Shown: piece after piece, positions 16,814 to 59,899 of the stretch | How positions within the stretch are numbered: position 1 is the first letter of the stretch | How the letters are laid out: each line of letters begins with the position of its first letter | Source of the DNA: Geosiphon pyriformis | Taxonomy: Eukaryota > Glomeromycota > Glomeromycetes > Archaeosporales > Geosiphonaceae | DNA: 64,000 nt | NCBI GenBank assembly: GCA_016748015.1 | Contig: JAAOMT010000543.1 | Span: 434,001-498,000, forward strand | Reading direction: 5' to 3' | The notes under the pieces: model-generated | Told to the model about the DNA's origin: nothing | The model's database searches: none | The model's input: the letters and a program-made list of their open reading frames with translations, nothing else | Translations under genes and position numbers: made by a program

Positions 16814-16899
16814 NNNNNNNNNNNNNNNNNNNNNNNNNNNNNNNNNNNNNNNNNNNNNNNNNNNNNNNNNNNNNNNNNNNNNNNNNNNNNNNNNNNNNN
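16814..16899. other. Assembly gap (86 N) between identical flanks
   Basis: Unsequenced, bounded on both sides by the same 489-bp sequence. Most likely two overlapping contig ends placed side by side instead of merged. Confidence 0.97.
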
Positions 16900-22739: not shown

Positions 22740-23472
22740 AATCAAGTTTAAAAGTTTTTTTAATTATACTATTATGAATAAACTTTTATTTTTTAATTTT
22801 TATCTATTTACTTAGCCATAATTAATCATATGTATTAGTTATTGATATTATATAATTAACCAGTTTATTTTTAAAATAAGTTATTAACTTGATTATTAAA
22901 TTAGTTATTAATATAATCATTAACTTAATTATTAACTTGATTACTAATCTAATTATTAACTGAATTATTAATGTAATTATTAACTTGATCATTGATTTTT
23001 TTTTAATAATATATAAGTAAAACTTTTTAAGAGCTGTAAAAAAACATTTATATTCAAATTATATTTAAATCAATACAATAATATTATTTTTTTATTTCTC
23101 TTTTATTATTTTTTTTCTCTTTTTTTTTTCTTAATTTGTATAATTTTTAGTTTTTATTAAGTATATTAAATAAATATTTATTAAAAAGTACAATTAATAT
23201 CAAATATTAAATTTTAAAATGCCAATATAAAACATAAAATTATATTAGTATATTATTTTTTGTTAACAGTATAAACTATTTTTTTATCTTTAAATTTTTT
23301 TGTTATTTTTTAAAAAGAATAATAACTAAAATATTTATGAGATTGATTTTGTATATTAAATTTTTACTAATTCAATTCATTTATTAAAGTTGAATTACTT
23401 TTTTAATTATTTTATTGTTATACAATACTGTTTTTTCTTGCTATTTATTAACTTGTTAATTTAACTATAACA
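22740..23472 (+). repeat. 5' LTR of the gypsy element
   Basis: Matches 37207-37890 through shared blocks, such as TTATCTATTTACTTAG near 22800/37275 and ATAATTAACCAGTTTATTTT near 22850/37320. Start and end are uncertain by about 10-20 bases because both copies have decayed. Confidence 0.85.
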
Positions 23473-26219: not shown

Positions 26220-27229
26220 TTTTCAAGAATTGGAAACCAATTAGTCTAATTCTTAATGAGAAAATTAAAACTGTAGAAAAATTATTTGAAAAAAAAAGTA
26301 TTTAAAATCCAATTTATAATAATTAAGCAAAAAAAATTCAGTAAAAATAACCAAAAAATTGATATTAAAAATCTGTTAACTCGAAATAAATTAATAATAT
26401 TAAAAAAAAACATCTTGGTTGAACAAATTTTGGTAAATAGAAATGAATTTTCCCAGCAAAAAAAACTATATTTATTACAAAATATAAAACTTATGAGTTT
26501 ATAAGAATATCTTTTGAATTAACAAATATTCTACCAATATTTTAAAAATTAATAGATAAAGTATTCAAATTAAAACATCAAAAATTTATTTCTGTGTATT
26601 TTAATAATATAATTGTATACTTAAAAACTTAAAATAAACATTTAAAACATCTTTAAAATGTTTTTAATCTTCTAAAAAATACTAGACTTAAAATCAATTT
26701 TTAAAAAACAGTCTATTCAGTTTTTAGGTTATTTTATAATAAAAGATAAAATTTTTTCAGATCTAACCAAAGTTGGAAAAATATAAAAGCTTAGACAATT
26801 AATATATATTTATGAACTATAATCTTTTTTTGCATTAATTTTATATTATTAAAAGTTTATTAGAGATTTTTTTAATATTATACATCTGTTTAATTAGCTT
26901 CTAAAAAAAATATCAATTATTATTGAAGTATTTTTCAACAAAAAATATTCAAAACTCTTAAAAAAAACTAATTACTAAACCAATCTTAAAACAACCAAAT
27001 TTTGACAAGCTATTTATTCTTTATATTAATATTTTTAATGTTTTTTTTAGTATTACAAAAAAAAAATTAAGTTATAATCTATGATAATAAAACTTTATAA
27101 AAAGCAGAAAAAAATTATATAACAACTGAAAAAAATGCTTAGCAATAGTATATTCTACTAATTATTGGAATAAGTATCTTATAAAAAAAAATTTAATATA
27201 TACACTAATTATCAAGCTTTAAATTAATT
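26220..27229 (+). pseudogene. Gypsy reverse transcriptase and RNase H remnant (5' part of pol)
   Basis: Reading through stops on the plus strand recovers family motifs. KTYEFIRISFELTN (from about 26487) corresponds to the usual YGxYEFxxMPFGLTN. VYFNNIIVYLKT (26594-26629) corresponds to VYLDDIxVYSKT, with both catalytic Asp codons changed GAT to AAT (26603-26608). FDKLFILYINIFN (about 27000) corresponds to the RNase H start FDKPFILYTDASN, again Asp to Asn. The text ends at the QALN codons, exactly where the LINE interrupts. Reverse transcription is impossible for this copy. Confidence 0.88.
27218..27229. repeat. Target-site duplication of the LINE, left copy
   Basis: TTTAAATTAATT, identical to 34120-34131. 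Lies directly against the A-rich 3' tail of the LINE. Confidence 0.85.
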
Positions 27230-27362
27230 TTTTTTTATTTATTTATTTAACAAGTAAGGTCCAAATACGACCTAGTGCTATACATCATACAAATGATCTA
27301 AACTAGGTGTGAATCATGCGCTTTCTACACGTGACCAGCCACTTGGGCCAGTCAGGACTACA

Positions 27363-30300
27363 CTATACATCTATATGCACAGAAACCAAATCTCTAATAC
27401 CTGAAAAAAATGGACAAAACCTATGAAACCCGAAACCAACTCCAAAAGCCTCAGCCACTCCCAGCAATCTAACCACACCAGCCGAAAACACCTTAGACAA
27501 ACCAGAAACTGAAACAAGAGTTGAGTCATCATGTGGAATCAGACTGCACTTTTCCATAAACACTTGGTATCTGGTGCAGACCAACTAAATGTCGTCCCAA
27601 AATGCAAGACAGAACTCACAATCTTTTTAGTACCCTCATCAGAATCATTAAAAACCAAGACAGACTTACGAAACCACTTATCGAAAACAAAGCCTTTACA
27701 CAGAGCAACACCAATTCCAACCTCAGAAACACAAGAAGCCAAAGCCTGTAAGACACAAGAAGAAGAATGAGACAGGCCAGAAAGAGCCTTCCAAGCTGAA
27801 GCATGAGCGCCCAACAAACAAGCACAACCAATGGCATCCTGAGGACACGAAAAGACGTGATCCGAGGTCTCAACATCACCACAGAACAGACAGACCACAC
27901 TGGGGTATCTCCTATCATACAAACACTTGCACACAGCAACAAGAAGCCGATGATGGAGAGCCTTCATAAAGTAAGTACGACAGCTAGCTGTGTGCATGCT
28001 GGTAAAACTGGATGCCAAGTGAGAATTGGTGCCACACTATAGAAGACTTAGACCAATTAATATCAATGCGCAACCTATTATCCATGACATGAAAACCCAC
28101 TCCGACTTCCCAACAAGCTCAATGGACTGACTGGAAAACATCACGAACAAAGTGTCTAGAATTACCAGAAACTGTCATACCACCAGCACACAGAAAACAT
28201 TTACTGACCAAATGAGGTAGGCGCCAAGCAGAGAGAGCAGCATCTTTAGCAAGTGCATCAGCACAATCATTGCCTGAGACACCTGAATGACCCTTCACCT
28301 TGACCCAATTCACATCCAAATTCTTCTGACAAATAACAGTAGTAATGTGATGATGCTCAATCCAACAGCGGTTCCTGAAATCCAGACAAGCCAACAATAA
28401 TTCCAACCTACACGCATCTAAAGCAGCTTGGCTATCCAAGAACAAGTCAACCAAACGAGAAAAAAGAACACACTCAAGGGCCAAAGCTATGGCTTGCAGC
28501 TCCGTCAAAGTAGAAGAAACCAAACCAGACACCCTAACACCCAAATCCAAGTTAATGTCCTTAAAAAAAACAGCAGCATCCGCCCTCACATCAACAGAGC
28601 CCAGACCAAAAAGAGATCTATCCATATACACAGAAAGGTGGGCAGCTCCAATGGTCGGCAAAGCATCACAAACCACACCAAAATCATAAAAAAGATGAAT
28701 GTTAGACACAGCATGATCATCTGCCAAAGAGGAACTTGAGGAGAGAGATACAACACTACCAAGAAAGTGAATGGAGAGATCAAACCAGAAAGGGACTGGG
28801 CCACGAGGGTCCAGCCTCTTCCAATGCTTGAAGGTTCTCCAACTAAAAACATCACCATTACAGTCATGAAGCTGTTCCACGAAAGCAATCCCATAACACC
28901 TGAGTGAAGAGACACACTTGAAAAAACAGGAATCACCTAAAACCAAAGACATAAGAGTACCATACCGACGACGAAAAGCACAAGCCAGAGGGCCCCCCAA
29001 AGACAAATCACACCCGGAAAAAATACGGACCACACCAGCCAAAAAATTATTTGAAGGACTAACACCAACACGAACCGGAAACAGTAAGGGATGATGAAAA
29101 CACTAGCTGAAAACCTGGAGGTCATGAAACCTATGTGAAAACAAGCGATCCAAGACACCAGTGGAATTTGCAAAAGCAATAACAGAGGCCAATTTACTCT
29201 CAGCCTGGATTTGTTTGAAAGTCTTTAGATTGTACAGAGAGGGATGATGAAGAGCATTACTGGGGAAATCACGTGGCAACCCAGACTTGGACTTAAAGAT
29301 CTTGTGTACTAATGTGTCCCATTTACTACAAACACTCAAAGAAATGAAACTGAACTGAGTCTTGTAGCTAATGATAGGGAAAAGAACCGCAGACACCAAA
29401 TATGCACACTGTTTGTCCGAAATTGCCTTCCTCAAAACAAGATTTACAAAAAACCGTACATCAGCCTGAGCTTTAGCCAAGCTAGACTTCGAAAAACCCC
29501 CAGAAGACAAAAAAATACCCAAATAGCGATGAGATTCCTCTTTCCTGGCGATGGAAATAGGCGCACCACTGATAGTTAAATGAGGGTCTAACACCCGACA
29601 GTTGATAGGGATGGCCACCATCTTGTCGTTATTCACAGAAATGTCATTGAACCTGAAAAACTTACTAGCAATATCCAGAATGTGTTGTGTAGCAGCCTGG
29701 CTGCTACCAATCCAAATAGTATCATCGATGAAAGCACCAGCAGCGAGAAACAAAGTCAATCCAGCACGAGAATCTACTTGGCCTGTTTTAGAAACATAAT
29801 AAGAATTCAACCTGTAGCTCTATACACTCTCCTGCCTCTTGACCTTGCACAAAAGTGAATCATAAAAAATACACCAGAGAAGAGGCGAGAAAACTTCACC
29901 CTGATCCAGACCATCATGGACACAATACTCATCAGTTAAACCAAAGTCAGTCATCACTCTGTTGACGCGACCATTGTGAATACTGCCAAAAAATCTAATA
30001 AACCTGTCACATATTTTGATCCTGATCAAACTCCTCTTAAGATGTTCTTAGCCAACTGAGTCATAAGCCTTGTGCATGTCCTGTAAAACCAGCCAAAGTT
30101 CACGGTTCTTCTCCAAGACATCCTCAACCACAGAACTGACAGCAAAAATGGGAGACTGCATCGTCATACCTTTCAAAACCAAAAAATTGTCTCCACGAAG
30201 AACATCAAAAGTGCCGCAAGCCAAAAAGATCCTATCTGAAAAGATCTTGGAGAGAATCTTGCAGGCCATTTCAATTAAAGCTATAGGATGGGTGTTCGTG

Positions 30301-32075
30301 AGAACTCTCTCTCATTCATATGGTTTAGGAATTATTGAGACCCAAGCTTCCCTCCAAGGCCCAGGAACCAACTCGCCAACCAGACATAAATTCAAAAGCA
30401 CCAAAAGCATATTCAAAATAGATTTGTCACAATGTTTCTACAATTCATTGGAGATATCAGAAAGACCAGCCGCTTTTCCATCAGGAAGATCTTTAACAAC
30501 AGTTGACAACTCATCAAAACTGATCGAGCACATGACATCAAAGAAAACACCATCGAACATGTAATCCAGAGGCCGAAATTGACAAACCCAATTCTCAGAG
30601 AAGTCAGACACCACCTCACGTTTTCTGGTCCATCCCTCCATAATTTCGTCCACCTTGGACTTAACCAAATCGGGCTCCAAAATCAACTCTTCTTCTATAA
30701 TCAGATGATCTAGAACCATCTTGCAAAAAGAATGCTCCAAAACACTTCTAATGGTATGACTCTTGTTCAACTCAAAACTCTCCATTCTCTTACCAATAGC
30801 CTGCTTGATTGAAGATTCTTTAGCATGCTTGGATTCCAAAAATTTCAAAGAGCGGTACGATTTTCTTGCTTTGGCTAGCACAGAACAAATAATATCAAAA
30901 TTAGAACTTGAAAGAAACAGAAACTTAACCTCCGATGCACCAGAAGAGTCGAGTTTGTGCCAGACCTCCAACAAAGAAGCAAAACCATAACTCGAAGCCA
31001 AACGCGAGGCCTTAACCAACTTAGAAACCAGCAGCTCCAGTTTGTAAAACCTAAAAGAAGTCCTGGTAAACACGCCGTCAAAACCTTTGAACCATTTTTT
31101 CTTGAATGTACCATCCGCTAAAAGAACCATGATCTTGCGAACAATGTCTCACATAGTGTCCACATCTGAAAACCTTACTGCCACTTCAAAAGCATCTGAG
31201 AACATAAAGGCATTGGCAGCTGAAGCATCCTTGAACTCCAACTACCTAGCATCATTGGCACCTTTGACATCAAACTTCCAATGATCCCTATTCGCCTGCT
31301 TGCGAAGAGAAATCAAGCACGTATCCAAGAGCCCGCCCAAACCCAAATCCACTGAAACAGCTCGATGGTCTGTGTCAAAATGCTCATTGACATTCAAAAC
31401 TTTATGATGCACTATCGCATTGACAAGACACGAGGAGACAAACACATAATCAATTACTTTTGTAACACCCCTAGAATTTTTCCAAGTGGACGTTTTCGCA
31501 GCTGGACTACCAACTAAAGAATTGACCAGACCCAAATCAAAGCATCTTTTGAAACTTGCACTTTTATGAGAACCGTTTTCATTAAAATCACCCCCAAGAA
31601 TGATGAAAGAAGATTCATTAACAGCCTTTACAATAAGAGAGTTAATCTCATCAGCCTGGGAAAACCGCACCACTGAAGAAGCACCAGCATAGAGCCTTAG
31701 AATTGACACCAAAAGCTTATTCTTGAAAAGCAATCTAACAGACAAGAGCCGGCCAGGCACTTCAGAAACTCTGCACACATGTCTTGCCAAAGAAGAGTCC
31801 ATAACAACCGCCACACCAGCACCCAGATAACCAGAATCCAAACCAGAGGAAAACACCCGAACACCATCAAACTTGTTGGCAATCCAGAGACGAACCCTAT
31901 TCTTCAACTTTGTCTCAGTAAAAATAGAAACCAAATTTCCCATGTCCTTGTGCCAATGAACTATATCTTCTTGTTTCGCAGGAATGTTCATGCCTCGAAC
32001 ATTACACGTAGCAATCTTCCAAATAAAACTGGTTATTGAGAAGATGAGAGAACCGAAAAACCCAAACCAGAACAC
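27363..32075 (-). pseudogene. LINE ORF2: endonuclease, reverse transcriptase, RNase H
   Basis: About 1570 codons. The APE endonuclease comes first (CNVRGM, TETKL, GGDFNE, DYVF, DTDHRAV). The reverse transcriptase follows, with QDMHKAYDS and the catalytic GAFIDDT, whose two Asp codons are 29721-29726. RNase H follows with YMDRS, TELQAIA, FLDSQAALD and GNDCADALA, all acidic residues present. Near the C-terminus is a zinc-finger-like CLFCGDVETSDHVFSC. Premature stops lie near 31242, 31148, 30435, 30290, 30046, 29820, 29102 and 28119. All fit simple C to T or G to A changes from Gln, Arg or Trp codons. A one-base shift near 28035 is undone by another near 27560. Confidence 0.9.
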
Positions 32076-33997
32076 AACATATCCAGTCTTGTCAACACTG
32101 AGCTGACTGATGCATCCAAAGCCATCAACTTTGACTCCAAACCACCAATCTTGGCAGTTAGAACCTTCGAACTACTGGAACCAAAATCAGGATTGGCATC
32201 ATCAATGGTAGGGCAAAGAGAAGGAGAGGCCACCAATAGAACGTCCAGTGTCATATCCAAATCCATGCATGAGGCCAGGGAAGCAGATGCAATGAGATGA
32301 GAGGCTAGAGAAGAAGACTCCGAAGATACTACCTCAACACAACTCAGCTTCTTCACAATGGCAGAAACTCAGTCTGCCAAAAGCTCCAAAGAGTGTTTCA
32401 AAATTGCCAACCAACTGCACAAATCAGAGATATCAGAAGGGGAGGATTCTACCGAGGCAGAACCTGCACCAAAACTAGCACCAACAGAAAAAGGACCCGA
32501 AGAAACCACACGAAAGGAAGTGCCACTAGCAACTTGGGCCCATGTCTTGCCACCAAAGGAAACTGGGTGAGTGATAGGAGCCTGTTTCTTCCTATATACA
32601 TTAGCCAGACAAACCCAATCCTGAAAAGTTACCACCTGCTTACTGCAAGCACCAGAATTCCCACCCATAGAACAAACATCAGAAACATGACCGAATTGTT
32701 TACATACTGCACAACAGGTCAAAGATAGACCAGCCCAATGCAAATTCACACCTTTGAAAACCAGAACCAAACCAATAGCAGCCAACTTGGATGCCTCACT
32801 CTCAAAACAGATCACAACACACTGATCACGAATATATGAAGATGAATTACGGTCAATAAAACAAGTTTTCCCACCATAGGCCTCCACCAATGCAGACAAA
32901 TCATGAGCAGTGGTGCCAACTGGAAGAGTGTAAAGCAACGCCCGATACTAATCTCTAGATACCCACATTTGTTTATCAACATTTGCCTTTGCCATGCAAA
33001 CAAAATTTTTTCCCATAAGCACAGACCATCTAGCCGCAACCAAATCAGCTATCTCAGATAATTCATATTCCACTAGGGCCTTTTGCCAAAGACCAATAAG
33101 CTGCACTTTGATTGAAATAATCTTGCCAAACTTGGAGAACACTGCCTCAATCGCCGATTTGGGAAGATCCACTGGGATTTCCTTGATGATCACCCCCTGA
33201 TCTGAACGGCTGTTTACTTTTCTTAGATTATTATTTACCAAAATTTTTTCACTGATTGCCATTTCCCTTGCCTTAATCAAATTTTTTTCAGATGTAAATG
33301 ATGACCTTATTATTCCTGGAAATTTTGAGGGAGTCGAAGCCTCCCCAAAACCATCAACTTGATAAAAAATTTTTTTCACACAAATCAACTTATCACTAAC
33401 AGTTTTTTCAGGAACAGCAGAAAGTTCAATATCCAATGCAAAAGATTTCACCGAAATAAAACTTCGAATCTCCCGATCACGTGACACAACTGGCAGCAAC
33501 TGATTGGATTCATTGAACGTGCGAGGAGGGAGTTCCAAAACGTCGCCAGCACCACCCACATCAACGATAAAAAGCTGCTTAGGCAGGTGTTCAAATACGT
33601 ATGTTCTCGTTTTCAAAACCTTTGGCGTAGCATTACCCATTAGTTCGTCATCCCCGGAAGCATCGGAATTGACATAGCTCGTTTCTTCCACAATTGTGTT
33701 CTTCATGTTCTTAACATCAGAAGTCCTGCCAACACTTGATTCCTCGCTGTCCATTTTACTACCCCAAGATTTCTTCCAGTCATCAATGTCATTATGTAGC
33801 ATGTCCACAGGCAGAGGGCCAGCCGATGAATCCACAACAACACCAGAATTATCAGGTTTCTTCGCTTTCTTGTAAGATGGACCACAAGTGTAAACACTCT
33901 CAACACATGCTTTTTTTTTAGTGCCAGAACGGGTCCCCATACCAGCCAAACCAGATGCTGACCCACCAGCAGAAGAGCCTACTGGATCCATTGTCAC
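32033..33997 (-). pseudogene. LINE ORF1: RNA-binding protein with RRM-like and CCHC domains
   Basis: About 655 codons starting MTMDPVGSSAGG. An RRM-like segment lies near residues 265-340 (GVIIKEIPVDLP...GKIISIKVQLIGLW). A zinc knuckle CCAVCKQFGHVSDVC follows in the second half, then Ser-rich sequence. ORF1 proteins of this type bind the element RNA and form the retrotransposition particle. Two premature stops break it: TAG near 32948 (Gln codon CAG) and TGA near 32367 (Arg codon CGA). Confidence 0.85.
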
Positions 33998-34119
33998 GAA
34001 CAGAGGTGTATGTAAAGAAATAACTGAAGAGAACAGAAGGGAATAAGGGAAAAGGAAGATATTTTTTTGACTACTCTATGCTCTCGTTATGGTCAGGAGA
34101 TCAACAAAAGAAAGAGTTA

Positions 34120-34131
34120 TTTAAATTAATT
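34120..34131. repeat. Target-site duplication of the LINE, right copy
   Basis: TTTAAATTAATT directly after the 5' end of the LINE. With the element removed, the gypsy frame reads QALN, stop, LKN, matching HQALKWLKN of intact elements. Confidence 0.85.
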
Positions 34132-35060
34132 AAAAAACAAAAAAAAAACTAGATGATAAAAAGCTTTCTTATTAGATTATTTATTTAGATAAATTTGAAT
34201 TTAATATTAAATACTAAAAAAAAACAATTAAAATACAAATATTCTATTCTAATTGATTATCTAGTAAAAACTAATTATCAAACCAATCAAATTAATTATT
34301 AGTAAAACATTAACTAAACAAATAACAAATAAATTTGGAAAACTATTTAGTGCTTATTAAATTTTTGGGTAAAAAACAATATTTATTAAAATATAATTAA
34401 AAGCAAAAAAAATTTTTTAAAAATAATCAAATAAAAATTTGATTTGACAAAATTAATTATATTAAAAAACTAAAAAAATCTTGATTAACCACAAAGAGTT
34501 ATTTAATTTGAGGAAAAAAATTGTAATATACAATTTATATACTAATTTTTTAGCAAAATATTTTAAAAAAACAAAAATTATTCAAAAAACATTAGGAAGA
34601 TATTATTGGCCAATATTAGAAAAAAATAAAATAGAATATATTAAAACATATAATACCTGTTAAAAAAAAAGGAGCATTTATTTTATATCTGTTGGTCAAT
34701 TTTTTAACAAAATTAAAATTAATATTGTTAAATTTTTAATAGTAATTCTTAATAAAAATAAATATATTATAACAGAAATTGATTATTTAACAAAATACAT
34801 AAAAACCAAAGTAATATTAAATTAAACAGCTACTTTAATTGCCAATTTTATCTATAAAAAAATCATATATAGACATAGATGTCTTTAAAAACTATTTTTA
34901 AATAGAAAAAAACTTTTTTTAGCTTTTTGATAAAAAAACTATTAAAGAAACTTGAAATACATTACAAACTTTTTTTTTTATTATCCATAGACTAATGAAT
35001 TAAAAAAATATTTCAATTAAAGACTTTGTAAAACTTTAGCAAAAATCAGTAAAAAAACAA
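34132..35060 (+). pseudogene. Gypsy RNase H end and integrase remnant (3' part of pol)
   Basis: Continuation of the gypsy pol after the LINE. The zinc-binding end reads TLGRYYWPILEKNKIEYIKT then YNTC (about 34585-34660). The core reads VGQFFNKIKINIVKFL, equivalent to VGQPFDRVGIDIVGPL with the first catalytic Asp changed to Asn. IITEIDYLTKYIKTKV follows, then YYP, stop, TNELKKYFN and LCKTLAKI (about 34975-35045), equivalent to YHPQTNGLVERFN with the catalytic Glu changed to Lys. Inactive. Confidence 0.88.
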
Positions 35061-37206
35061 ATTTATAAAACAAAATTTTATTTTTAACTCTCTTTGTTTA
35101 TAGAATAGTAAATTATAATATAACTTATTACGAATTCTTTTACTTATTTTATTGACATATAACAATATTATTTATTAAAATTAATATCAAAACAATATTC
35201 TTTGAAAAAATAACTGAACTTAATTATAAAAATATTTTGCAATAATAACTTGAAATAATTTTAAATACTTTAGTAAAAGCACAATATTACCAGCCAAAAT
35301 TTGAGATATTATTTAGCATAAAATTATTTCTATAATTTTTATTATAAATTAGCATATTATTATTTTAATTTATTACTTATTACCTCATCAAATTATCTGA
35401 ATTATTATTTAATTAATAATGTAATTTGTACAGAAAACAAATATAATTAAATTGTAATAATCAAATTATATAATATCCTAAACTATGTAATATTTAGAAT
35501 TTATTAAAATAATTTATAGTTTGTAAAAATAACTTGTAGTTCAATAAAATATATTAATTTACCAAAATATTAAAAAAAATGCTAGATTATAAAATAGTAT
35601 TACAACAAGTTATATAAAAAAAGAGCTTTTTTTTCAAAAAAATATATCTATTTTAGCTTAAAATATTTTTTTAGAATCAATTTTACCTTAAAATCAACAC
35701 AGTTTCTATAAATCAATTTAATAAAAATTATCTTGAAATTACGAAATCTTTAAGTATCAAATACTTAAAATTAATTCTTTAAAACTAATATTTTAAAATT
35801 AATTAGCGACCAATTTTAGTAATTATTAGTAACTTTCAGATCTAAATCTGAAATAACTTTCTTAATATATTTCTTATTTTTTTTTCTTTAGTTTATTTTT
35901 ATTTTTTTTAATTTTTATTATATTATTGAATAGTCTACAATCAAAATTTTTTGTAGAATAGTTGACTTTTATAACAAAGTAACTACATATTATTTGAAAG
36001 AATTTATAAACAAAATTTTTTGTAAAAAAATTGACTTTTATTACAAAGTAACTATATAAGTAATTGGCATAAAATTGGCTATTTCATTGTAAATCCAACA
36101 ACATATATAGTCTAAAATATAAAGAGATACTTTGAAAAAAAAATTGGCTTATTAAATGTTCACTAGCTTTCATTAATAGCAGAATTAACAATAAAAAAAG
36201 CATTAATATTCTTAAAAAAAGAGTAAAAAAAACTTAAATAACAACAAATAATTGGTTATAAAAAGATAAAAACTTTCTAAAAAAACTCAAAAAAAAACAT
36301 ATAAAATACTTTTTTTAAGTATTAATAACTTAATTTTTAAATACAAATTAGATTAAAACAACATTTTTGGTAACAAATTTTCAAGTTAATAGGAAAAATT
36401 ATTTATAATTAACAAAGTTCTAAATAATAGATCTTATATTTACAAAATCAAAATAGAATAATATTCAATAATTGATCTGTTTATAATACACGAATCAAAA
36501 AGTATTACAAAAAAACTAATTGGCAATTAGTTATTGTAATATTTACAATATCTATTAGTAAAACATTAAAATAATTATAAGAAGAGTTATTCTAGTTTTA
36601 AAATAAACATATTTTTAATTAAGACGAAAAAATATTTCTTTATTAAATATTCAAAATGTTCTTTTTACTATTTACAACTATTAAATAAAAAATTACTTAA
36701 ATACTTTATTTACTATCAAAAAACAAATAATAATCGAAAATAAAATTGGAGTATATTCTATTATTAACTTCCAAAAAACTGTTATAAAAAGACAGAAAAT
36801 TAGTAGTAAATTAGAAAAATATATGCTTAAATATATAATTGCCAAAATACTTAATTTTTTTAACATAATTAGAAGAAAAATAAACAAAATATTATTCATA
36901 AACAAGAGATTGTCATATAAAAAACAACTTAAACAGTATAAAAAACTTGGTAAATTTATAGAAAATATAAAGCTTTTGAAGAAAACAACTTCAAAAATCC
37001 AGAAAAAATTTTTGAACATTGTATATTTAGATGTTTTAAGAGTTTTAACTATTATAAAAAGTGCCAAAACACTCATATAAAAGTTTGGTCTTTTGGATTT
37101 AAAACTAATATTGTCTTAGCTTTTTTATATATTTTTAACCAAGGATTTTAAAAAATTAATCAACTTTAAAATAAAAATCTCAAAACTTTTCTTATATAAT
37201 TTTATT
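35060..37206 (+). other. Gypsy 3' interior, unreadable
   Basis: A/T-saturated sequence between the integrase remnant and the 3' LTR. Overlapping ORFs at 36693-37080 on both strands are low-complexity Lys/Ile/Phe runs and are not assigned. Confidence 0.5.
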
Positions 37207-37890
37207 TTGTCAGAACTCAATTTTTTTAAAAAGAATAATATTATAAATAAAACTTTTACTTTTTAATTCTTATCTATTTACTTAGTCAAAATTAATTACA
37301 TATACTAATTATTAATACTATATAATTAACCAGTTTATTTTTAAAATAAGTTATTAATTTAATTATTAACTTGATTACTTATTCAATCATTGAATAAATT
37401 ATTAATGTAATTATTAACTTAATCATTCAATTTTTTTTAATAATATTAAGTAAAATTTTTTAAGAATTATTAAAAAGCATTTATATTTAAATTATACTTA
37501 GGTTAATATAATAATATTAACTTCTTTATTTTTTTTATTTTATTTTTTTTTTTTATATAATTGTTAGTTTTTGTAAAATATATTAAATAAATATTTATTA
37601 AAAAATATAACTAATATCTAATATTAAATTTTAAAAATGTTAATATAAAACATAAAATTATACTAATATATTATTTTTTGTTGACAATACAAACTATTTT
37701 TCTACTTTTAGATTTTTTATTATCTTAAAAAAATAAATAGTAATTAAGATATTTATAAACTAATTTTATATATTAAATTCTTATTAATTTAATTTGCTTA
37801 TTAAAATTAAATTATTTTTTTGATTATTTTATTATCATATAATATTGTTTTTTTTTGTTATCTGTTAGTTTGTTAATCTAACTATAATAA
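37207..37890 (+). repeat. 3' LTR of the gypsy element
   Basis: Homologue of 22740-23472. It starts near TGTCAGAACTCAATTT, which has the TGT start common in gypsy LTRs, and ends near CTAACTATAATAA. Confidence 0.85.
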
Positions 37891-39494
37891 TACTATTATT
37901 GAAATTAATTAATTAATTTTTAAGTATATAATTATATTGGTTTTATTTATTTAGTTTTTTAATTTTATTTAATAGTTAAAATATGTTATTGTTATATTTA
38001 ATTTTAAAAACTTAAATATTATTATTATTTATATTAAAATTTTAAAAAAAAGTTATAATTGGTAAAAAAATTTAGATTATTAATATTGTGTTAGTATTAA
38101 AATTTAAATTATTTGGTTTTTAAGTATAAAATGCTTTTATTTTGTTTATTAAAATTAGTATTTAAGCCTGTTTTAGGTTTTAAAATTTTTAAAATTAAAT
38201 AATTAATACAAAATATATATAAAACTGCTTTTTTTAACTTTTTTTTGTTGTTTAGTTAATTTTATAATTAAATTAATTAAATTTATTATTAATTTTAAAA
38301 TAAAAAATAAAATTTTTGTTATTATAAAAATATTGATAACTTATATAAATAATAATAAAACTTTTTAATAATTAATAATTTTATTTTGTTTATAATTTGT
38401 AGTTAAATAAAAATAGTAAATTTTAATTTAAAATAAGATTTTTTTCATGAATTATTTTATTTTAATAAAAAACTTTATTATTTTGTGTTAAAATAATTTT
38501 TTGAAATTTTATATAGCCATTATATAATTAAATATATAATACTAAAATTATTTTTAATAAATCTATAATTAATAATTTTTTATTAAGTAATAATAATATA
38601 ATCTGACAATTTAAAAATTAATTAATTATTAATTTCAAAAATATTGATTAATTTAAATTAATTGCAACTTTTAAATAGTAATTTTTTTAAAAATTAAAAA
38701 AATTTGTTAATATATAATAATAATAATAAGCTAAAAAAATTGATATTTACATTCAAATTTGCATAAAATTAAAAAATTACAATAAATTAAAAAAACATTG
38801 ATTAATTTTATTAATACAATTATTAAAATACAAAATTTTTATTAAAATTTTTATTTTTTTATTTAATTTGCAAATATAAAATAAAAATTAATCTTTTTTA
38901 ATTTATTAAAAATTTTAAATTAATAATATTAACATATTATTTTTAAGTTTTTTATTAAATATATTATTTTTAATATATATTAAAGTATATTTTAATTTAT
39001 TTAATTTAAAAACATAATAATAAAGTTTTTTTATATTTAACTTTTTATAATCTTTGTTTTTTTTCTGCTTAGTTTTAACTTATTTTACACAAAATTTTTT
39101 TAATATATTTTTAATTATATATTCTTTGATAATATTAATTTTTTATATTAATTTTTATATTCTTAATTAAGATTATTTATTTTACATAATTTTTTAATAT
39201 TTTAATTTTACAACAAGTATTTTATCAAATATTTTTTATTTAATACATAATTTGATAATTTAATATCTCTGTTTTAAATTTATACAAATTTTAAAATAAT
39301 TTTTTTAATTTGTAACATTTAAAAAAAAACTTTGATAAAATTATTATTGTTTTTAATTAATTGGCCTTTTTGCATATTTTTTTGGCTGTATTAAAAACAA
39401 TTTTTAACAAAATATTATGTATATTATTTATTATAAAAAACTTTTTATTTTTATTTTTTAAAATAATACCTAAAATTAAAAGTAAAAAAAAAAC
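37891..39494. other. A/T-saturated sequence between LTRs
   Basis: No gene or clear motif. Probably older repeat debris beside the gypsy element. Confidence 0.5.
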
Positions 39495-40000
39495 ATTTTA
39501 GTTTTATTAATAATTTAATTATTATAATTAAGTATTTTATTTTTAAAATTAGTTATTAATGTAATTATTAACTTGATTGATTTGATTATTAACTTAATTA
39601 TTAACTTTATTAATTGTTTTAACAGAAGATATATAAATAAAACTTTTTATAACAATAAATAAATATTAACTAAAAATCAATTTTACATTAATTAATTAAT
39701 ACAAGTGATTTAATTCTTTTTTTTTAATTTAAATATCTAAAAATAAAAGATTATAATTTTTTTTTCTTGATTTTGTAAATTGTTAACTTTTGAAAATATT
39801 ATTAAATAAACAATTACTGAAAATTACAACCAAATATCTGTTATTGAATTTAAGAGTATTATTTGAAATATAAAATTACATCAGTTGTATTATCTTTGTT
39901 AATAGTACAAACTAACTCTTTATTTTCAAATTTTCTTGAAAAGAATAGCAAATAAGATAATATTTTCATTAATTAACTTATTACTCTAATCTGTAACAAT
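39495..40000 (+). repeat. Third, related LTR (solo or from another element)
   Basis: Shares ordered blocks with both gypsy LTRs: AAAATTAGTTATTAATGTAATTATTAAC, the TATATAAATAAAACTTTTTA region and the later ATTTGAAATATAAAATTACA region. It has diverged more than the two LTRs have from each other. No second matching LTR was found nearby. Confidence 0.65.
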
Positions 40001-40509: not shown

Positions 40510-41454
40510 AAGCTTCAACTAAAGCAACTGGGAAGGATCTTGAATCATTGTATCCACCTAAGCCCAAGAAAGGGGGCGACGAAGAGATCATGGTAGGTTT
40601 CACACTAAAGACATTGTAACCTTTAACAAATTTCAACATTCTGGTCTTTGTTGCTGTCCTTGAGGCACAATCTCAGGAAAAGAATGGAGAAGACAAAATG
40701 GAGAGCTTTCATGAAAATTAGGAGCAAGGGTTGGCGGATGTTTTGATTTTCGATTGTCTACTTTTTTTCCTCTTAGACAAAGCAGCATGTGTATATTTCA
40801 GATCCATTGTTTGTATTACTTACGCAGGATATTATTCCTTATATCGTGGATGGAATTGATATCACTGTCTAGATCAAAAAATAAAAAAATGGTACAGAAC
40901 TATGGGAGTCAGTATCATTTGATTTATATAACTCCAAGATCTGGATATTTATTTTGCCAAATCTTCAGTTGCTAATGTTATTTTAATCCAGGGCTATTTT
41001 CTACGATATACTTGACCTTAACGAAAGGACATTTTCCACCTTCGATATGAAGAAAGCTGCAGTGTGAATATCTACAATGTAAATATTAACAATTGAATTG
41101 GGTATTTGGCTCAACATTCTAGATAATTAGGTATGTAGAGCTAAATTTTTGATCTTTAGAATACTTAAAACTCTGCTAATACTGTGCAAATATACTTTCT
41201 TAATGTCAAGTTAATCGAAAACATCGACGAGATACTCGCGAAGTTGATGGCGAGATCTTGCAGGTGCGTCTGCCGCTGAAAGATGATCTCAAGTCCATCC
41301 CTGCGGACGTGTGAGAACTTGTATGCTGTCCACTTCTTTTGAATCACAGATTTGTGCTTAGAAACAAGTATGCTAAATCTGGACTCGTACCCGACTGTAG
41401 TATTGATATCTGAACTCCCGATGATAAACTCAAAATACAGAAAGGCATGAAGTA
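40510..41454 (+). pseudogene. Decayed multi-exon unrecognised gene (right-arm homologue of 4029-4293)
   Basis: Coding-like pieces on the plus strand. 40510-40592 reads EASTKATGKDLESLYPPKPK and on to EEIM with a GTAGGT donor. 40777-40870 reads TKQHVYISDPLFVLLTQDII and on to a TAG. About 40992-41065 reads AIFYDILDLNERTFSTFDMK. About 41202-41454 is homologous to the left-arm fragment but has a one-base deletion (LAKLMA then out of frame) and TGG to TGA in the IDIWTPDD region. It runs into the gap. Only the last part is duplicated in the left arm. Product unknown. Confidence 0.5.
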
Positions 41455-41972
41455 NNNNNNNNNNNNNNNNNNNNNNNNNNNNNNNNNNNNNNNNNNNNNN
41501 NNNNNNNNNNNNNNNNNNNNNNNNNNNNNNNNNNNNNNNNNNNNNNNNNNNNNNNNNNNNNNNNNNNNNNNNNNNNNNNNNNNNNNNNNNNNNNNNNNNN
41601 NNNNNNNNNNNNNNNNNNNNNNNNNNNNNNNNNNNNNNNNNNNNNNNNNNNNNNNNNNNNNNNNNNNNNNNNNNNNNNNNNNNNNNNNNNNNNNNNNNNN
41701 NNNNNNNNNNNNNNNNNNNNNNNNNNNNNNNNNNNNNNNNNNNNNNNNNNNNNNNNNNNNNNNNNNNNNNNNNNNNNNNNNNNNNNNNNNNNNNNNNNNN
41801 NNNNNNNNNNNNNNNNNNNNNNNNNNNNNNNNNNNNNNNNNNNNNNNNNNNNNNNNNNNNNNNNNNNNNNNNNNNNNNNNNNNNNNNNNNNNNNNNNNNN
41901 NNNNNNNNNNNNNNNNNNNNNNNNNNNNNNNNNNNNNNNNNNNNNNNNNNNNNNNNNNNNNNNNNNNNNNNN
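41455..41972. other. Assembly gap (518 N)
   Basis: Unsequenced; lies at the mirror position of the gap at 3122-4028. Confidence 0.99.
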
Positions 41973-43019
41973 TTTATTACGTAGTGAGCATTATTTAGAT
42001 TCAGCAGAACGCATGTACAGTGACTCACCAAAGTCATCATACCACTCGAGAAAATTAATAAACAGTTTTTTTAAAAAATAATTCATAGACCTGAAAGTGT
42101 GGTTGATATTGATTGATTTAATATATCTATTTTTATTTTTTATCTCAAATTACCGATATGATATCTGAATTTTAATAAATCACATATTAACAAATGTTTA
42201 TTCTATTCATTCGCGAATATGCGTGCAGATATGGTTACGATAAACGATTGTGTTATGCTTTTATTACGTTACCACCTTACTTTTAAACATTCATGAGTAG
42301 AAATGAGACAAACGATTTTCGTTCATTACGTTTAATTAAAGGTCGCGAGCATCCAGAGCTGTGTTTATCCTTAAAACTGCCAGTTTCATTTTTTAATTTT
42401 CTTATGCGTGTTACCTTAGATCGTGCTACACTTCATGAGAAGCAATTTTCGGGTAGAATATTCTTCAAGAAGGGTATAGAAATACGGGCCATAATAATTT
42501 CCAATTTCCGTATATTTATTTGAGGAAAAAATCTTCTTTTGAATTATTTGTATTAAGACAATCTGAAATGTCCAGTAAAACCGCGACCACCTTGTTGATT
42601 TTCTCGTTTGTTAATCGATGATCTAGCTTTTCTCGAATGGAATGATGACTTTCGTGCACTGTCTATCTAAAGTAAAACTTTCATATATTAAAGTTTCATA
42701 AAATCTTATATTAATTTAGATAATAACTAAGAAAAATAAATTTGTCATCTAGCGATCCTCGCTCTTTTCGATGGATTTTCTCAATGCATGAATATTGAAA
42801 GAAAGCTTAAATATAACTTCGATGCATTAGCCATTTAAGAGAGGTAAAGAGCAAAACTTCCCGGGTTTGAATATTAAACTTTTAACAATGAATATAATAT
42901 TATTACGAAGTGATTAGAAATCAATGAGTTTCTTATATGAAATCGCTAAAGATTTTTTAAATAGAAAGTGTGGCTTTTGGCTTTCCACACCAAATATTCA
43001 GATTAAGAGAGCTTCAAGA
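41973..43019. other. Upstream region of hydrolase copy 2
   Basis: 42655-42960 appears identical to the reverse complement of 2821-3121. The part before it falls in the left-arm gap. An ORF at 42293-42523 is uncertain and unassigned. The TATA-like stretch of the other copies reads TTAAATAGAAAG here (42957-42968), and about 60 bp of 5' leader present in copy 1 are missing. Confidence 0.6.
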
Positions 43020-44078
43020 ATGCAAATTTTTCTTTTGCTTTTATGTTTCTTTCCTGTATTTCTCCTTTCAATTCCATTAAAAAATCAAATACCACCAGTA
43101 TCTTTTTTGTCGTTGAACCAAAATGGAATAAAAAACTTCACAGTAACCAGTAATGATGAGTTAAAAATTTATGCTGAAGAAGTGGGGGATCCAGAAAAAC
43201 CTACAATTGTTTTCTTGCATGGTTACATGGCAACACGTTTAGTTTGGGAACCACAATTTGCTTCAAAATCTTTGCGAGAGAAGTTTCATTTAGTACGATG
43301 GGATGATCGTGGGTGCGGCGCAAGTGAATCACCAAACAATATCACTAAATACAATAATGTTGATTTCTACGCGGATGACTTGAATGCTGTTATAGAAAAA
43401 GCAACTAGAGGCAATCGAAAAAAGAAAGTTATTCTAGTTGGATGGTCTCGCGGAAATCTTGTTGCATTATTATATTTGAAAAAGTATGGACAGGAAAAGT
43501 TAGCCGGCTTTGTATTTGTGGCTGGATCATTAGACATGGCAGGATTTTCATCGGCTGCTGTCGAATTAGTACCGATTACGTTTTCAGATGACTTAGTCAC
43601 AGCTGTAAATGCATTTAGCACCTTTATTGATGATTTTTCTGCCAGACCATTGGATCCGAGGATCAAGGCATTCTTTTTAGGTGGTGCTATTACCTCACCG
43701 CCAACTAATCATCAAGGATCTACAGGTATGCTAAAAAATTATTTTTACATAGTTTAAAAGATTATTATTATTTTTAACGATTAAACCTAATTCTTATATT
43801 GCTTCTGCTAAAATTAAGCTGCAATTTTTGGGTACGTTGAAAATGATGGCTATGTTAACGTATTTCGCAACATTACCGCCCCAATTCTGGCAATCTTCGG
43901 TGCCGATGACCGTTTAATTAATACGCCAGTCTCATCGGCAAAGGTACTCGCCACTAATTCGAGAGCCACCCAAATCACCTATCCCAATGCGGGTCATTTA
44001 CTTTTTTGGGACGTCTATGAAGATTTCAACCGTGGTATTGAGAAATTCGTAGAAAAGATAATTAAGGATGAAAATTAA
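43020..44078 (+). CDS. Secreted alpha/beta-hydrolase, family copy 2 (two exons)
   Basis: Exon 1 is 43020-43725, a 93-bp GT-AG intron follows (43726-43818), and exon 2 is 43819-44078; the product is 321 aa. The MQIF start is chosen because it begins the conserved signal peptide; the frame is open further upstream to 42924, but that stretch is shared with non-coding DNA of the left arm. The catalytic set is complete: FLHGY, GWSRG, GADDR and GHLLFWD. The N-terminal linker is shorter than in other copies (NQIPPVSF). An AATAAA lies at 44085-44090, just past the stop. Probable secreted serine hydrolase, substrate unknown. This is the right-arm counterpart of copy 1. Confidence 0.88.
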
Positions 44079-45267
44079 ATTATTAATAAATAAAATGTTG
44101 TATAGACTCTATCAGAATTAGAGTTTTAGGAAATGTAATCATTTATTTAACAGATAACTTTTATTATAAAATTTTCGAATATAATATTTAATTAATAAAT
44201 TTCCGATTAATATTTATATATCATAAATTTAAATTGCATTTTATTTTGTATCAAGAAAATCCGAAAATTTCAGTTAAGTGAAACGAGTGAAACAAATAAA
44301 AATAATTCGGGACTTGGGCTCTCATTTCGCTCAAAAAGGAAAAAAATCAAATACAATTAACCAGAACTTCAAAAACAAGGCCAGATTAAATTTTTTTGGA
44401 ATTAATGAACACTTATAGCTAGTAAGAATGTAAATGATTGTTTTCTGAAATTTGAAGTAATATGCATCACATCATTCAATAGCGATAATTGTGTTATTTA
44501 AAGGCTGAATTGAAACCTGATATTATTAAGCAAAAACCTTTCACATCTTTGATTTGCAAAACTAATGAATTTATTTTTAATCTAAATAGGGTTAATGCTG
44601 ACTAATGGTCATGTTGGATATCACTCTCCGTCCAGATTTCCTTTAAAAAAAAAACATTATGGTGATTAAAAAGCTTTTTTTTAATTAAAGGAATGCTGAA
44701 AACACTTGTGAAATTTTTTCATTCATATTTTATTGCAATAAAAATAAAATATTCCAAGTTTAAATATATAAATAGAAAAATTTACTTAAAGGTTTTTTAT
44801 TGAGATACATTTACGAATTTCTTTAAGATAATAACTAAAACTGTCCAATTTAGGCATATGTAACAATGCTTAATCGTTATTGCATTGCGACCTATATATT
44901 TTGATGGAATCCAGATCTAGAGGCTGCGGAGGAACTTTAAAAACTGGTGTTCATTTCTCTTTTTATATTGGCTTTTCCCTTTTTGATAGATTTTTTCAAT
45001 AGATATCTGTTAAAAAGGAAATTCAATGCAGGTTTAGCCATTTACAATGGGTGCAGATGACCAACTTTCGGGTTTTAATATTACCCTTTTAGCAATGAGC
45101 GATAATGTTGTCATCGAGCGCTTAAAGGTCAATGAGTTTCTGGTTCGGTGAAATTGCTAAAGATTTTTTCGATTTTCGAAAAATATAAAGTATAGCTTTT
45201 GGCTTTCCTCATCAAATATTCAAATTCAATCAATCAATATCATTAATACAACTTTAAGACTATTCTA
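44079..45267. other. Spacer and promoter region of hydrolase copy 3
   Basis: 44090-44850 matches the left-arm spacer. 44830-45267 matches the 5' flank of copy 4 near 52560-52990, so this upstream block travels with the gene. Confidence 0.65.
45183..45190 (+). promoter_or_regulatory. TATA-like element of hydrolase copy 3
   Basis: ATATAAAG, about 93 bp before the MQIF ATG, followed by the conserved GCTTTTGGCTTTCCTCATC block. Confidence 0.6.
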
Positions 45268-46354
45268 ATGAGAGCTTCAAGAATGCAAATTTTTCTTTTG
45301 CTTTTATGTTTCTTTCCTGTATTTCTCCTTTCAAGTCCTTTGAAAAATGAAAAACAACAACTACCACTAGTATCTTTTTTGTCGTTGAATCAAGATGGAA
45401 TAAAAAACTTCACAGTAACCAGTAATGATGGGTTAAAAATATATGCTGAAGAAGTAGGAGATCCACAAAAACCTACAATTATTTTCTTGAATGGTTACTC
45501 AGGAACACGTTTAGGTTGGGAACCACAATTTGCTTCAAAATCTTTGCGAGAGAAGTTTCATTTAGTACGATGGGATGATCGTGGGTGCGGTGCAAGTGAA
45601 TCACCAAATAATATCGCCAAATACAATAAAACTGATTTCTATGCAGATGACTTGAATGCTGTTATAGAAAAAGCAACTGGAGGCAATCAAAAAAAGAAAG
45701 TCATTCTAATTGGATGGTCTCGCGGAAATCTTGTTGTCTTATTATATTTGAAAAAGTATGGACAGGAAAAGTTAGCTGGCTTTATATTTGTGGCTGGATT
45801 AATAGAAGTTGGAGAAATTTTACCGGCTGCTGCGGAATTAATACCAAGTACGCTTTCAGATGACTTGGTCACGGTCGTAAATGGAACTAGGCAATTTATT
45901 GATCTTTTTTCTGTCAAACCATTGGATCCGAGAATCAAGACATTCTTTTTAGGCGGTGCTATTACCTCACCGCCAACTAATCATCAAGGATCTACAGGTA
46001 TGCTAAAAAATTTATTTTAACATAGTTTAAAAGGTTATTATTATTTTTAACGATTAAACCTAATTCTGACATTGCTTCTTCGGCTAAAATTAAGCCGCAA
46101 TTTTTGGGTACGCTGAAAATGATGGCTATGTTAACGTATTTCGCAACATTACCGCCCCAATTCTGGCAATCTTCGGTGCCCATGACCGTTTAATTAATAC
46201 GCCAATTACATCGGCAAAGGTGCTCGCCACTAATTCGAGAGCTACCGTAATCATCTATCCCAATGCGGGTCATTTACTTTTTTGGGACGTCTATGAAGAT
46301 TTCAACCGTGATATTGGGGAATTTGCGGGAAAGATATTTAAGGATGGAAATTAA
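45268..46354 (+). CDS. Secreted alpha/beta-hydrolase, family copy 3 (two exons)
   Basis: Exon 1 is 45268-45997, a 97-bp intron follows (45998-46094), and exon 2 is 46095-46354. It gives 324 aa from MQIF at 45283, or 329 from the ATG at 45268 (MRASR). The frame is clean. Signal peptide, GWSRG nucleophile elbow and GHLLFWD His motif are present. Two changes stand out: the oxyanion motif FLHGY is FLNGY (His to Asn), and GADDR is GAHDR, which keeps the second, likely catalytic, Asp. Loss of the His suggests altered activity or substrate, though the Gly is kept. Its left-arm counterpart is the dead copy at 310-845. Confidence 0.87.
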
Positions 46355-46646
46355 ATTAATAAAACGTTGTATAGACTCGATCAGAAATAGAAATTTAATC
46401 ATTTATTTTAAGTAAATAACTTGGATTATCTAAATTAATAAATTTCCGATTGAGATTAAAGTGAACATGTGATCACTCGAAAATTATTTAAACATGTATG
46501 CTGTTATTGACCTTCCTGTGATTTGGACCATTATCCGTATTTGGCTTTCTTTTCAACGTTTCGCACCTTCTAAATTATCCTGGTTATGAAGGTTAAATTT
46601 TTCGAAATGACAATTATATTTTCTACTGGTTTCGACAATAGCACTC

Positions 46647-51399: not shown

Positions 51400-52903
51400 A
51401 GATAATTTGTTTTATAATTAGTGAAAATTTCCAATTTAATTAATTTCGGAACATGAATGATTTAAAGGGTTTTCGAATTTTCCATTGGTATTTTATTATC
51501 CCTTTAAATTTCTGAGATCGTTCTTTAATTCAATTGGGAATAATTAATCATCAAGTCAATAAATGAATTTTGAAAGTGGGAAGAATATAATAAAAATTGA
51601 AAATGTTAAAATATTGTAGGTCTGGACTAGGGAGCAAATTTATTGATTAACAACAAAAGTAAACAAAAGTTTTTAAATATGAGACATTTTAACCTAATAA
51701 ATATTTTCAAAGTATCAAAAAGTCACATTCTGAACTTAAATCTGGGACGTTATCAATAAAGAATCGTTTGTTGCTAGACTTTGTTTTATGTTGAAATATT
51801 GTACAATCGCATACATAAATAATTTCCAAAAGACACTGAAAAATAAACGAGGAAGTTTTTTTTAGCATGCTCATTCTTTTACAGGGTATTATTACATGAA
51901 TATTTGAGATTTAAAGTATCAAAAAAAGGTTTTAGTATAAAAGAACTTAACTTTGGAAGAAAAAAGGAAAATGATTTCTAATACAAACCTTTAGTATGAA
52001 ATAAATTTAGTAATCAAATGAAATTTGTTGTGGGATAATAATAAAAAATAATTGGACATATTATTATTGATTTCTTTTACTAGCATAAGCCAGAAAACAA
52101 AGCGGTATGATGATGCTTAGAAATTATATAAGTTTTAAAATTAAGTATATTGATTTCCTTCAACCTATTTAGTCTATCATTGAATAGCTATATCTCTATT
52201 TACAGTGTAGCTGCGCCACAAAGCACTAATTATCAATAATTCTTTATTTGAAAAAAATTGTGCCCTTTAATACTATGAGGAATATCAATTAATTAAAATT
52301 AGATAATTATGGTTAATCATGTGGTGATCAGGCTGGTCTTGAAAATAAAAGGACATTTGAATTATGATCTCTCTGAAAATATTATTAGCTGTCCCAGATT
52401 TTTCGGATTTTCTCTATCAACAAAGAGCGTGAGACTCATGATCTAGTTGACGCATTTATTAGAGTATATAATATAATCTTAATTTATTCTTATCTCAACA
52501 TGGGAAATTTTTACATTATATAATAGCTCTAGCACAAATTTTGAGAAAGGGTTTTTTAAGATAATAACTAAAACTGCCCAGCTTAGGTACATGTAATAAT
52601 GCTTGATTGTTATTGCATTGCAACCTATATTCTAATGGAACCCAAATCTAGAGGCTGCAGGGGATCTTTAAAAACTTGATGTTCATGTTCGAACTGAAAA
52701 AATGAATCAAAAGTACACAATGTGTCAATTTCTCTTTTGTTATCCGTCAAAAAGGATACTTAAATGGAAACTCGATGCAAGTTTAGCCATTACAGATGAA
52801 CTTTCCGGTGTGAATATTCTTTAACAATGAGCAGAATATCATCATCAAGTGCTACAAAATCAATGAGTTTCTGAAATAGCTGAAGATTTTTTCGTTTTCG
52901 AAA

Positions 52904-52912
52904 TATATAAAA
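52904..52912 (+). promoter_or_regulatory. TATA element of hydrolase copy 4
   Basis: TATATAAAA about 96 bp before the MQIF ATG, in the context conserved with copies 1, 3 and 5. Confidence 0.65.
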
Positions 52913-52992
52913 TCTGGCTTTTGCCTTTCCTCATCAAATATTCAGATTAAAACAACCAACATCATTATTAATTTAACTGCAGAACGATTCTT

Positions 52993-54062: not shown

Positions 54063-54737
54063 GTTTATTAATCAATAAAATGTTATATGGAATCATAAAT
54101 TTAAATTGCATTTTATTTTCCCAAAACGAGTGAAATATTTGAAAAAGAAATAAAAACAATTTGGGATTTGAGCTTTCATTTTCCTTAAATGGAAAAAGTT
54201 AAAATATAATTATCCCAAACTTGAAAAATAAGGCCCGTTGGATTTCTATTTATGCACCAAAATATTTTAAATACGAAAGAGGAATGAATATTTATTTTGT
54301 TGAGATTTCTTTATATTATTTTATTATATACAGTCAGACCTCCATAAAAGAACCCTCGATAAAAGAACAACCTCTTTCAAAGAACATTTTTTTATAGAAA
54401 CAATTGATTAATTAACAATTTTCCCTTTATATAAGAACAATCTATAAAGGAAAAAGAACATAAATTTATCAAACGTTTATTCGAAATTTACCTTCATATA
54501 AGAACAAATATCACGTGCTAGATGTTAATTGGTAATTGGGAAAAGAGTTAGAATGTATTAAATTGATTTCATCCTAACTTTCTTTTAAATCAATTTATAT
54601 TGGATTTATTCTTTGATCTTGTCTGTTTTCACGTACAGCCACTTAGCCTCTATTGTATCCCAATTCAGGCTTGCTAAAACCAAATCTAATATTATCGTAT
54701 TAGGCACATTTTCTAACAGACTTGCTAAATTATCTCA

Positions 54738-59844: not shown

Positions 59845-59899
59845 TCTCGCTTTTGCCTTTCCTCATCAAATATTCAGATTCAAAGAATCAATCAATATC

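Follow-up and report, generated by a model that had tools for sequence, protein, structure and literature searches.

A LINE nested in an older Ty3/gypsy element of Geosiphon pyriformis, and the C-to-T decay of its repeats

Introduction

The stretch of Geosiphon pyriformis DNA analysed here (64,000 nucleotides; assembly GCA_016748015.1, contig JAAOMT010000543.1, positions 434,001 to 498,000 of the forward strand; hereafter the window) carries a long interspersed nuclear element (LINE) in the middle of an AT-rich Ty3/gypsy element, and raises the question of how the two came to be joined, in which order they arrived and what has eroded them to such different extents. The answer reached, with high confidence, is nested transposition, in which an old gypsy element was eroded by C-to-T change, a LINE was later inserted into it by target-primed reverse transcription, and the LINE was then eroded likewise. 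Nested transposons are recognised by a target-site duplication (TSD) together with an interrupted frame, and nested insertions are textbook knowledge; among fungal genomes, the repeat landscape of Mycosphaerella graminicola reportedly contains them. The window resembles such cases in having a younger element inside an older one and differs in how much further decay has gone in the older of the two. As a nested insertion it is ordinary, and the decay of the repeats is the more interesting part.

Ends of the LINE and the target-site duplication

27218..27229, plus strand: TSD copy 1, TTTAAATTAATT, exact match to 34120-34131
34120..34131, plus strand: TSD copy 2, TTTAAATTAATT, exact match to 27218-27229
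27230..34119, minus strand: full-length non-LTR (long terminal repeat) retrotransposon (LINE), 6,890 bp, 42% GC, from 11 full-length relatives at 90.8-92.1% and from composition
27230..27249, minus strand: LINE 3′ tail, TAAA repeats then A7, by direct reading; a TAAA or A-rich tail is present in 11/11 relatives
34119..34119, minus strand: extra base at the LINE 5′ junction, T in LINE sense, found in 1/11 relatives (L017)

The first-pass annotation placed a 12-bp repeat exactly at both edges of the LINE, and this is what is found: TTTAAATTAATT occupies both positions and the match ends at 12 bp (C at 27217 against A at 34119; T at 27230 against A at 34132). The word is not rare here, occurring 4 times in the window against 1.08 expected from shuffles, and the pair carries weight because both places are set by other evidence, namely the relatives of the LINE; an exact 12-mer match at two given flank points has an empirical chance of 1.85e-5 (37 of 2,000,000 random pairs).

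The genome searched comprises 124,688,122 bases (124.7 Mb) in 406 contigs. With the first 720 bases of the LINE as query, at least 23 other places match at 83% or more, and 20 of these 23 were taken for comparison, comprising 11 loci of family A (full 6.9 kb, 90.8-92.1%), eight of family B and a more distant one (L028). Eight of the 11 family-A relatives start with AACTCTTTC at the base matching 34118; L017 starts one base earlier, L023 one base later, and L024 is without about 12 further bases. The ends therefore agree within 13 bases in all 11, and the flanks all differ, as the 60 bases outside the relatives' ends are 0.25-0.53 identical to the window on the 5′ side and 0.32-0.48 on the 3′ side. 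Random AT-rich 60-mers give a mean of 0.38, a 95% point of 0.48 and a maximum of 0.62, which places the relatives' flanks at random level, and sequence beyond the ends is shared by none of the 11. The TSD and these independent ends together fix the insertion point to the base, as had been claimed. The proposed limits of 27230 and 34119 hold in that no relative extends past them, and need one qualification, since base 34119 is found in a single relative and is probably junction filler or 5′-end variation.

Filler-like bases also occur at other LINE 5′ junctions. In L013, L015, L017, L018, L021 and L026 a mostly A-rich stretch of about 3-7 additional bases separates the duplicated target from the LINE, the L015 case being based on a short 8-bp repeat.

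The interrupted gypsy element

22755..23470, plus strand: 5′ LTR of the gypsy element (approximate ends), by repeat search; 78.3% identity to 37221-37887 over a 722-column alignment
37221..37887, plus strand: 3′ LTR of the gypsy element (approximate ends), by repeat search and LTR alignment
26459..27217, plus strand: decayed gypsy reverse transcriptase (RT)/RNase H remains left of the insertion, by tblastn with the genome's own open gypsy frames
34132..35284, plus strand: gypsy continuation, the end of RNase H and then H2C2/integrase remains, by tblastn with the L033, L034, L038 and L039 frames

The left flank, at 13.8% GC, is matched through stops up to 27183 by the frames of L029, L030, L032, L033, L035, L036, L037 and L040, and the L033 frame carries the match on to the junction. 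The frames of L036 (RVT_1), L033 (RT_RNaseH) and L039 match the window in that order, giving the gypsy succession of RT, RNase H and integrase; the L039 frame contains H2C2 (PF17921) and rve, the latter below cut-off. The open RNase H frame of L033 (PF17917, E 3.8e-41) carries HQALVWLHNKKN at the site matching the insertion, so that the LINE falls inside the RNase H domain. When the LINE is removed, the joined flanks align with L033 across the junction by tblastn (37/129 identical, E 3e-14, composition correction off). The rejoined codons, CAA GCT TTA AAT TAA TT|A AAA AAC, read Q A L N stop L K N just as the first-pass annotation had it; this reading lies one frame off the main L033 alignment on both sides, and small compensating indels in the old gypsy are therefore probable.

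Paralogous empty sites also carry the gypsy alignment over the junction. Two flank searches, with 40 candidates scored in each, identify 10 gypsy loci whose two flank hits both extend to the junction, with 8-19 bases between them. This spacing equals exactly one 12-bp copy, once unaligned query ends are allowed for, in five of the 10 (C383, C190, C152, C353, C354), and is off by 1 in C165 and C342, by 2 in C330, by 4 in C295 and by 8 in C384. These agreements bear on the suggestion that the junctions are an assembly artefact or a tandem or recombination product. The window does hold three N runs, or assembly gaps (3122-4028, 16814-16899 and 41455-41972), but neither junction lies near one, 11 further copies have coinciding ends, and the tail, the TSD and the spacing at the empty sites are in agreement, so that the chance of such an artefact is negligible.

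Anatomy and families of the LINE

32036..34075, minus strand: ORF1 (open reading frame 1), 680 codons, two in-frame stops in the window copy, from the frame map
32720..32745, minus strand: breakpoint of the 5′ module common to LINE families A and B, from 25-base bins
31242..32075, minus strand: ORF2 piece with apurinic/apyrimidinic (AP)-type endonuclease, PF03372 E 3.6e-6
29103..29810, minus strand: ORF2 piece with the end of the reverse transcriptase, PF00078 E 0.0096, below cut-off
28119..29042, minus strand: ORF2 piece with RNase H, PF00075 E 3e-9
27845..27892, minus strand: zinc-knuckle-like motif (CX2C...H...C) in the 3′ part of ORF2 (C-terminal), by pattern search

The order of domains in ORF2 is AP endonuclease, RT and RNase H, as in the LINE group; the RT is recognised more clearly on the corresponding open frame of L026, where PF00078 scores E 2.3e-11 between endonuclease and RNase H. 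In ORF1, pattern search finds a CCHC zinc knuckle that begins at 32713, and PF00076 gives a weak RRM-like match (E 0.013) that stays under its cut-off. Several stops interrupt ORF2 in the window copy, which has also lost 2 and 13 bases in two private deletions. The element has an A-rich 3′ tail and a TSD, and its ends carry no repeat of 60 nt or more, i.e., no LTRs. A truncation check gives 1,735 first-look candidates for the 3′ end against 342 for the 5′ end, with 40 of each scored. The I/R1/Tad1-type LINEs share the layout of AP endonuclease, RT and RNase H, and the window LINE may belong to the Tad1/I clade. Its likeness to this type extends to the CCHC knuckle of ORF1, the C-terminal zinc-knuckle-like motif that follows the endonuclease, RT and RNase H of ORF2, the A-rich tail and the variable TSD length; it differs in sharing its 5′ end with an otherwise distant second family.

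That second family is family B, whose members L009, L010, L014, L019, L020, L022, L025 and L027 share the 5′ end with family A. Over the first 1,250 bases the two families show no fixed difference across 1,203 columns, and the identities within the 5′ module are 91.0% between A copies, 89.5% between B copies and 89.9% between A and B. The identity of the window copy to family B stays high until about position 1,390 (about 1.39 kb) and falls to 52-70% in 345-base bins from 1,380 on. In 25-base bins around LINE position 1400, identity drops from 78-98% before to 48-83% after, and transversions rise from 0-1 to 1-6 per bin. The break lies inside ORF1, just before the CCHC knuckle, and the common 5′ end with divergence afterwards implies that family A or family B is chimeric.

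C-to-T decay of the repeats

The decay of the LINE is directional. In a 12-copy alignment of family A with 6,808 ungapped columns, 1,946 are variable and 1,876 of these are C/T or A/G, with T or A in the minority in 1,756, tied in 52 and in the majority in 68; two-state transversion columns number 52. Pairs of copies differ by 8.07% transitions and 0.203% transversions (about 40 to 1), and the tree of the 12 copies is a star with 96.9% of its length terminal. The loss of C and G per copy is 9.5-11.6%, alike on both strands, and in 690-base bins along the copies it scatters from 4% to 21% without a common trend.

The frequency of change depends on the neighbouring bases. By 3′ neighbour, C-to-T change per copy affects 28.7% of CpG, 8.8% of CpC, 6.4% of CpT and 6.1% of CpA, with other (non-CpG) C changed at about 7%; by 5′ neighbour, non-CpG sites change at 9.9% in TpC, 7.6% in CpC, 5.2% in GpC and 4.2% in ApC. 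The non-CpG sites are overdispersed (variance 1.63 times binomial), and further context effects therefore remain. Both halves of a CpG pair are changed in one copy in 59 cases against 262 under independence; once a CpG is broken, the rate for its remaining half approaches that of ordinary sites, which is what methylated CpG would lead one to expect.

Other elements decay in the same way. Family B has lost 9.8-11.3% per copy, with CpG at 29.8% and CpA at 6.4% (again no CpA preference) and with transversions of 0.478% per pair, above family A; the similar decay suggests that the bursts of families A and B were of roughly equal age. A like transition excess is seen in ten young gypsies (L030-L039, mostly 92-95% pairwise) and is less in the pairs with L029 or L040 (about 86-88%). 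The like excess in LINEs and gypsies indicates that the process acts on unrelated elements. In contrast, the ten paralogue pairs of five tandem hydrolase genes in the window have transition to transversion ratios of 1.05-2.2, and their singletons are 32 T>C and 29 A>G against 22 C>T and 28 G>A. The contrast between repeats and genes is strong but not perfect, as the hydrolase genes are older, under selection and the sole non-repeat DNA compared.

Three candidate explanations were rejected on these data. Ultraviolet-type mutation was set aside because one copy shows no excess of CC-to-TT changes (26 against 30.2 expected on one strand; 49 against 44.8 on the other), neutral drift on the transition to transversion ratio of the LINE pairs compared with that of the gene paralogues, and tracts of repeat-induced point mutation (RIP) on the spacing of changed sites, for which pairs within 20 bases give z of -1.3 to 1.8 against shuffles in the 12 copies, none above 2 and positive in nine.

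Relation to RIP and other known systems

Classical RIP acts on duplicated sequence during the sexual phase and needs a rid-type methyltransferase. The C-to-T excess recalls the Neurospora type in being nearly all C-to-T, on both strands, in repeats and absent from the duplicated genes of the window, and the decayed gypsy passes the usual composition indices (TpA/ApT 1.09 left and 1.08 right; CpA+TpG over ApC+GpT 0.93 and 0.92). However, the CpA preference of classical RIP is lacking, CpA being the least changed of the four 3′ contexts, changed-site pairs within 20 bases are at shuffle level, the copies are alike in their loss, and duplicated genes of 1.2-1.3 kb are spared, which makes classical RIP an unlikely source of the excess. 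RIP-like defences are described with a CpA context (PMC12543289), and a TpCpG context of repeat C-to-T mutation is given for Pucciniomycotina (PMC5381629). Both types share with the window C-to-T change on both strands of repeats. The LINE family differs from the former in its CpA of 6.1% against CpC of 8.8%, from the latter in its TCG of 27.3% against ACG of 31.7%, and from both in the evenness of change, within copies as well as between them.

The C-to-T change would most likely stem from methyl-C deamination in repeats that are silenced. For Rhizophagus irregularis, gypsy and LINE elements and CpG methylation of transposable elements are reported (PMC8647823); deamination of methyl-C would yield the CpG part of the present pattern, although what is reported there is methylation and not this mutation pattern. 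Among the papers listed on arbuscular mycorrhizal fungi and RIP, on R. irregularis transposable elements and on RIP-like change in early-diverging fungi, no title concerns the present decay pattern, and a literature search on methyl-C deamination in fungal transposable elements is without a match; neither is proof of absence from print. A C-to-T erosion confined to repeats and fitting neither described RIP context, near-constant per copy, on both strands and without tracts, with CpG at about four times the non-CpG mean and TpC at 1.3-2.4 times the other non-CpG contexts, is put forward tentatively, as a possible but doubtful reading.

Order of the two insertions

The elements differ in orientation and in decay. 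The first-pass annotation had the LINE opposite to the gypsy and much more mildly decayed; the LINE indeed lies on the minus strand and the gypsy on the plus strand, and C/G loss is 9.5% in the window LINE copy (mean of 12 copies 10.9% by context count) against about 58-65% in the gypsy. The higher gypsy figure comes from a comparison, over about 1 kb, of the window gypsy (15% GC) with eight copies of a gypsy family of 35-37% GC, in which 57 of the 202 C and 52 of the 157 G are retained. Among C kept or gone to T, 65% have become T, and likewise 65% for G to A, a figure that may partly reflect divergence between families; only 21 of 555 A/T have turned G/C. The lower comes from the LTR pair, which differs by 48 C/T and 33 A/G (81 transitions) and 29 transversions and shares 29 G/C, giving about 58% loss per LTR if C-to-T alone acted. 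If rates are equal, the gypsy is roughly nine to ten times older than the LINE in decay units. The proposed order of gypsy, A/T drift and then LINE is thus supported as an order, and the drift is replaced by directional, not neutral, C-to-T change. The TSD cannot contribute here, as all 12 of its letters are A/T and untouched by the C-to-T process, so that its identity is unusable for dating or order.

The alternative in which the LINE entered a still GC-rich gypsy, which then decayed faster, for example by a repeat-directed mutation acting on the more abundant gypsy, is very improbable. In its favour, a repeat-directed C-to-T process may be sensitive to copy number, and the all-A/T copies of the TSD could have converged by change of C/G to the same A/T letters in both. 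Yet the 1 kb beside the 5′ end is at 8-18% GC in every one of the 12 family-A copies, which have lost only 9.5-11.6% of their own C/G, and the transition excess is common to both LINE families and to the young gypsies.

Several observations weigh against nested insertion in the order preferred here. The decay rate may differ between elements, and C/G loss is no proven clock; the LTR transversions are probably inflated by AT-rich alignment. The empty sites are paralogues and not alleles, known from hit spacing. Another three loci, at which the two hits fall on one strand within 10 kb of each other, are no plain empty sites: C121 is without much of the junction region (a deletion across it), and C178 (about 72584-82065) and C366 (about 1548088-1556244) have about 9.5 and 8.2 kb between their flank hits, perhaps because of other insertions near the same gypsy region. 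Five of the 11 relatives have no convincing TSD (A-runs, or 9 bp at most); on the supporting side, the other six (L013, L017, L018, L021, L023, L026) have TSD-like repeats of 10-13 bp close to the ends of the element, which are more than simple A-runs, scored without a chance control.

In the favoured course of events, a Ty3/gypsy element would have inserted long ago and been brought to about 14-15% GC by C-to-T change on both strands. A later LINE burst, of which at least 12 full-length copies are left, would have placed one copy in the window gypsy. The LINE endonuclease would have nicked the plus strand after 27229 (...TTAATT^AAAAAA), the freed 3′ end would have paired with the A-rich RNA tail and been extended into cDNA, and the other strand would have been cut 12 bases off, between 27217 and 27218, with fill-in producing the 12-bp TSD. 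The tail lies on the side where the plus strand (...TTAATT) would prime on A-rich RNA, an arrangement that matches target-primed reverse transcription. The inserted copy would then have been eroded by the same C-to-T process.

Where the LINEs land

The 3′ flanks of the family-A copies are below 20% GC over 1 kb in nine of 12, and 18 of the 64 one-kb tiles of the window are below 20% (three of them with assembly gaps). Flank DNA similar to the window gypsy (E of 1e-8 or less) is found at 11 of the 20 LINE loci, in some over only 56-244 bases and with the ends of family B elements set roughly. Target preference and survival are indistinguishable, because the window is no genome-wide control. At L012 and L018 the LINE is flanked on either side, in the right order, by gypsy of the window kind, at sites matching about 36088-36101 and about 37557-37676 of the window, and both LINEs therefore split gypsies of this kind.

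Other features of the window

The alpha/beta hydrolase genes (Hydrolase_4/Abhydrolase_1) lie at 849-3121, 42654-44850, 45019-46457, 52746-54293 and 59693-61222; the five are about 81-87% alike, with a balanced mutation spectrum unlike that of the transposons. A phmmer search with one of them against PDB returns esterases, haloperoxidases and other hydrolases, with no close relative. Pfam applied to 18 other open pieces gives alpha/beta hydrolase domains, a weak steryl acetyl hydrolase and a Tc5-type helix-turn-helix domain, and is otherwise sub-threshold. The Tc5-type domain, at 54729-55136 (PF03221, E 8.9e-5), perhaps marks a DNA transposon remnant or a CENP-B-like gene, and a diverged gypsy LTR-like sequence found by repeat search at 39424-39855, outside the gypsy element, is perhaps a solo LTR. 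The open frames 3100-4164 and 41165-42040 are artefacts, because they cross N gaps, and gap sequence makes up most of the tile at 3001-4000, which has 3% GC. Nothing was found in the 64-kb window by Rfam or tRNA scans.

Implications

The value of this insertion is that its target, the two ends of the element and the relative age can each be fixed, and the decay pattern gives a means of ordering insertions in an AT-rich genome, in which plain divergence is hard to read. If the erosion of repeats described here is real, C/G loss would be a usable clock for nested transposons, and the same erosion would explain the deserts of 10-15% GC in which new LINEs keep landing.

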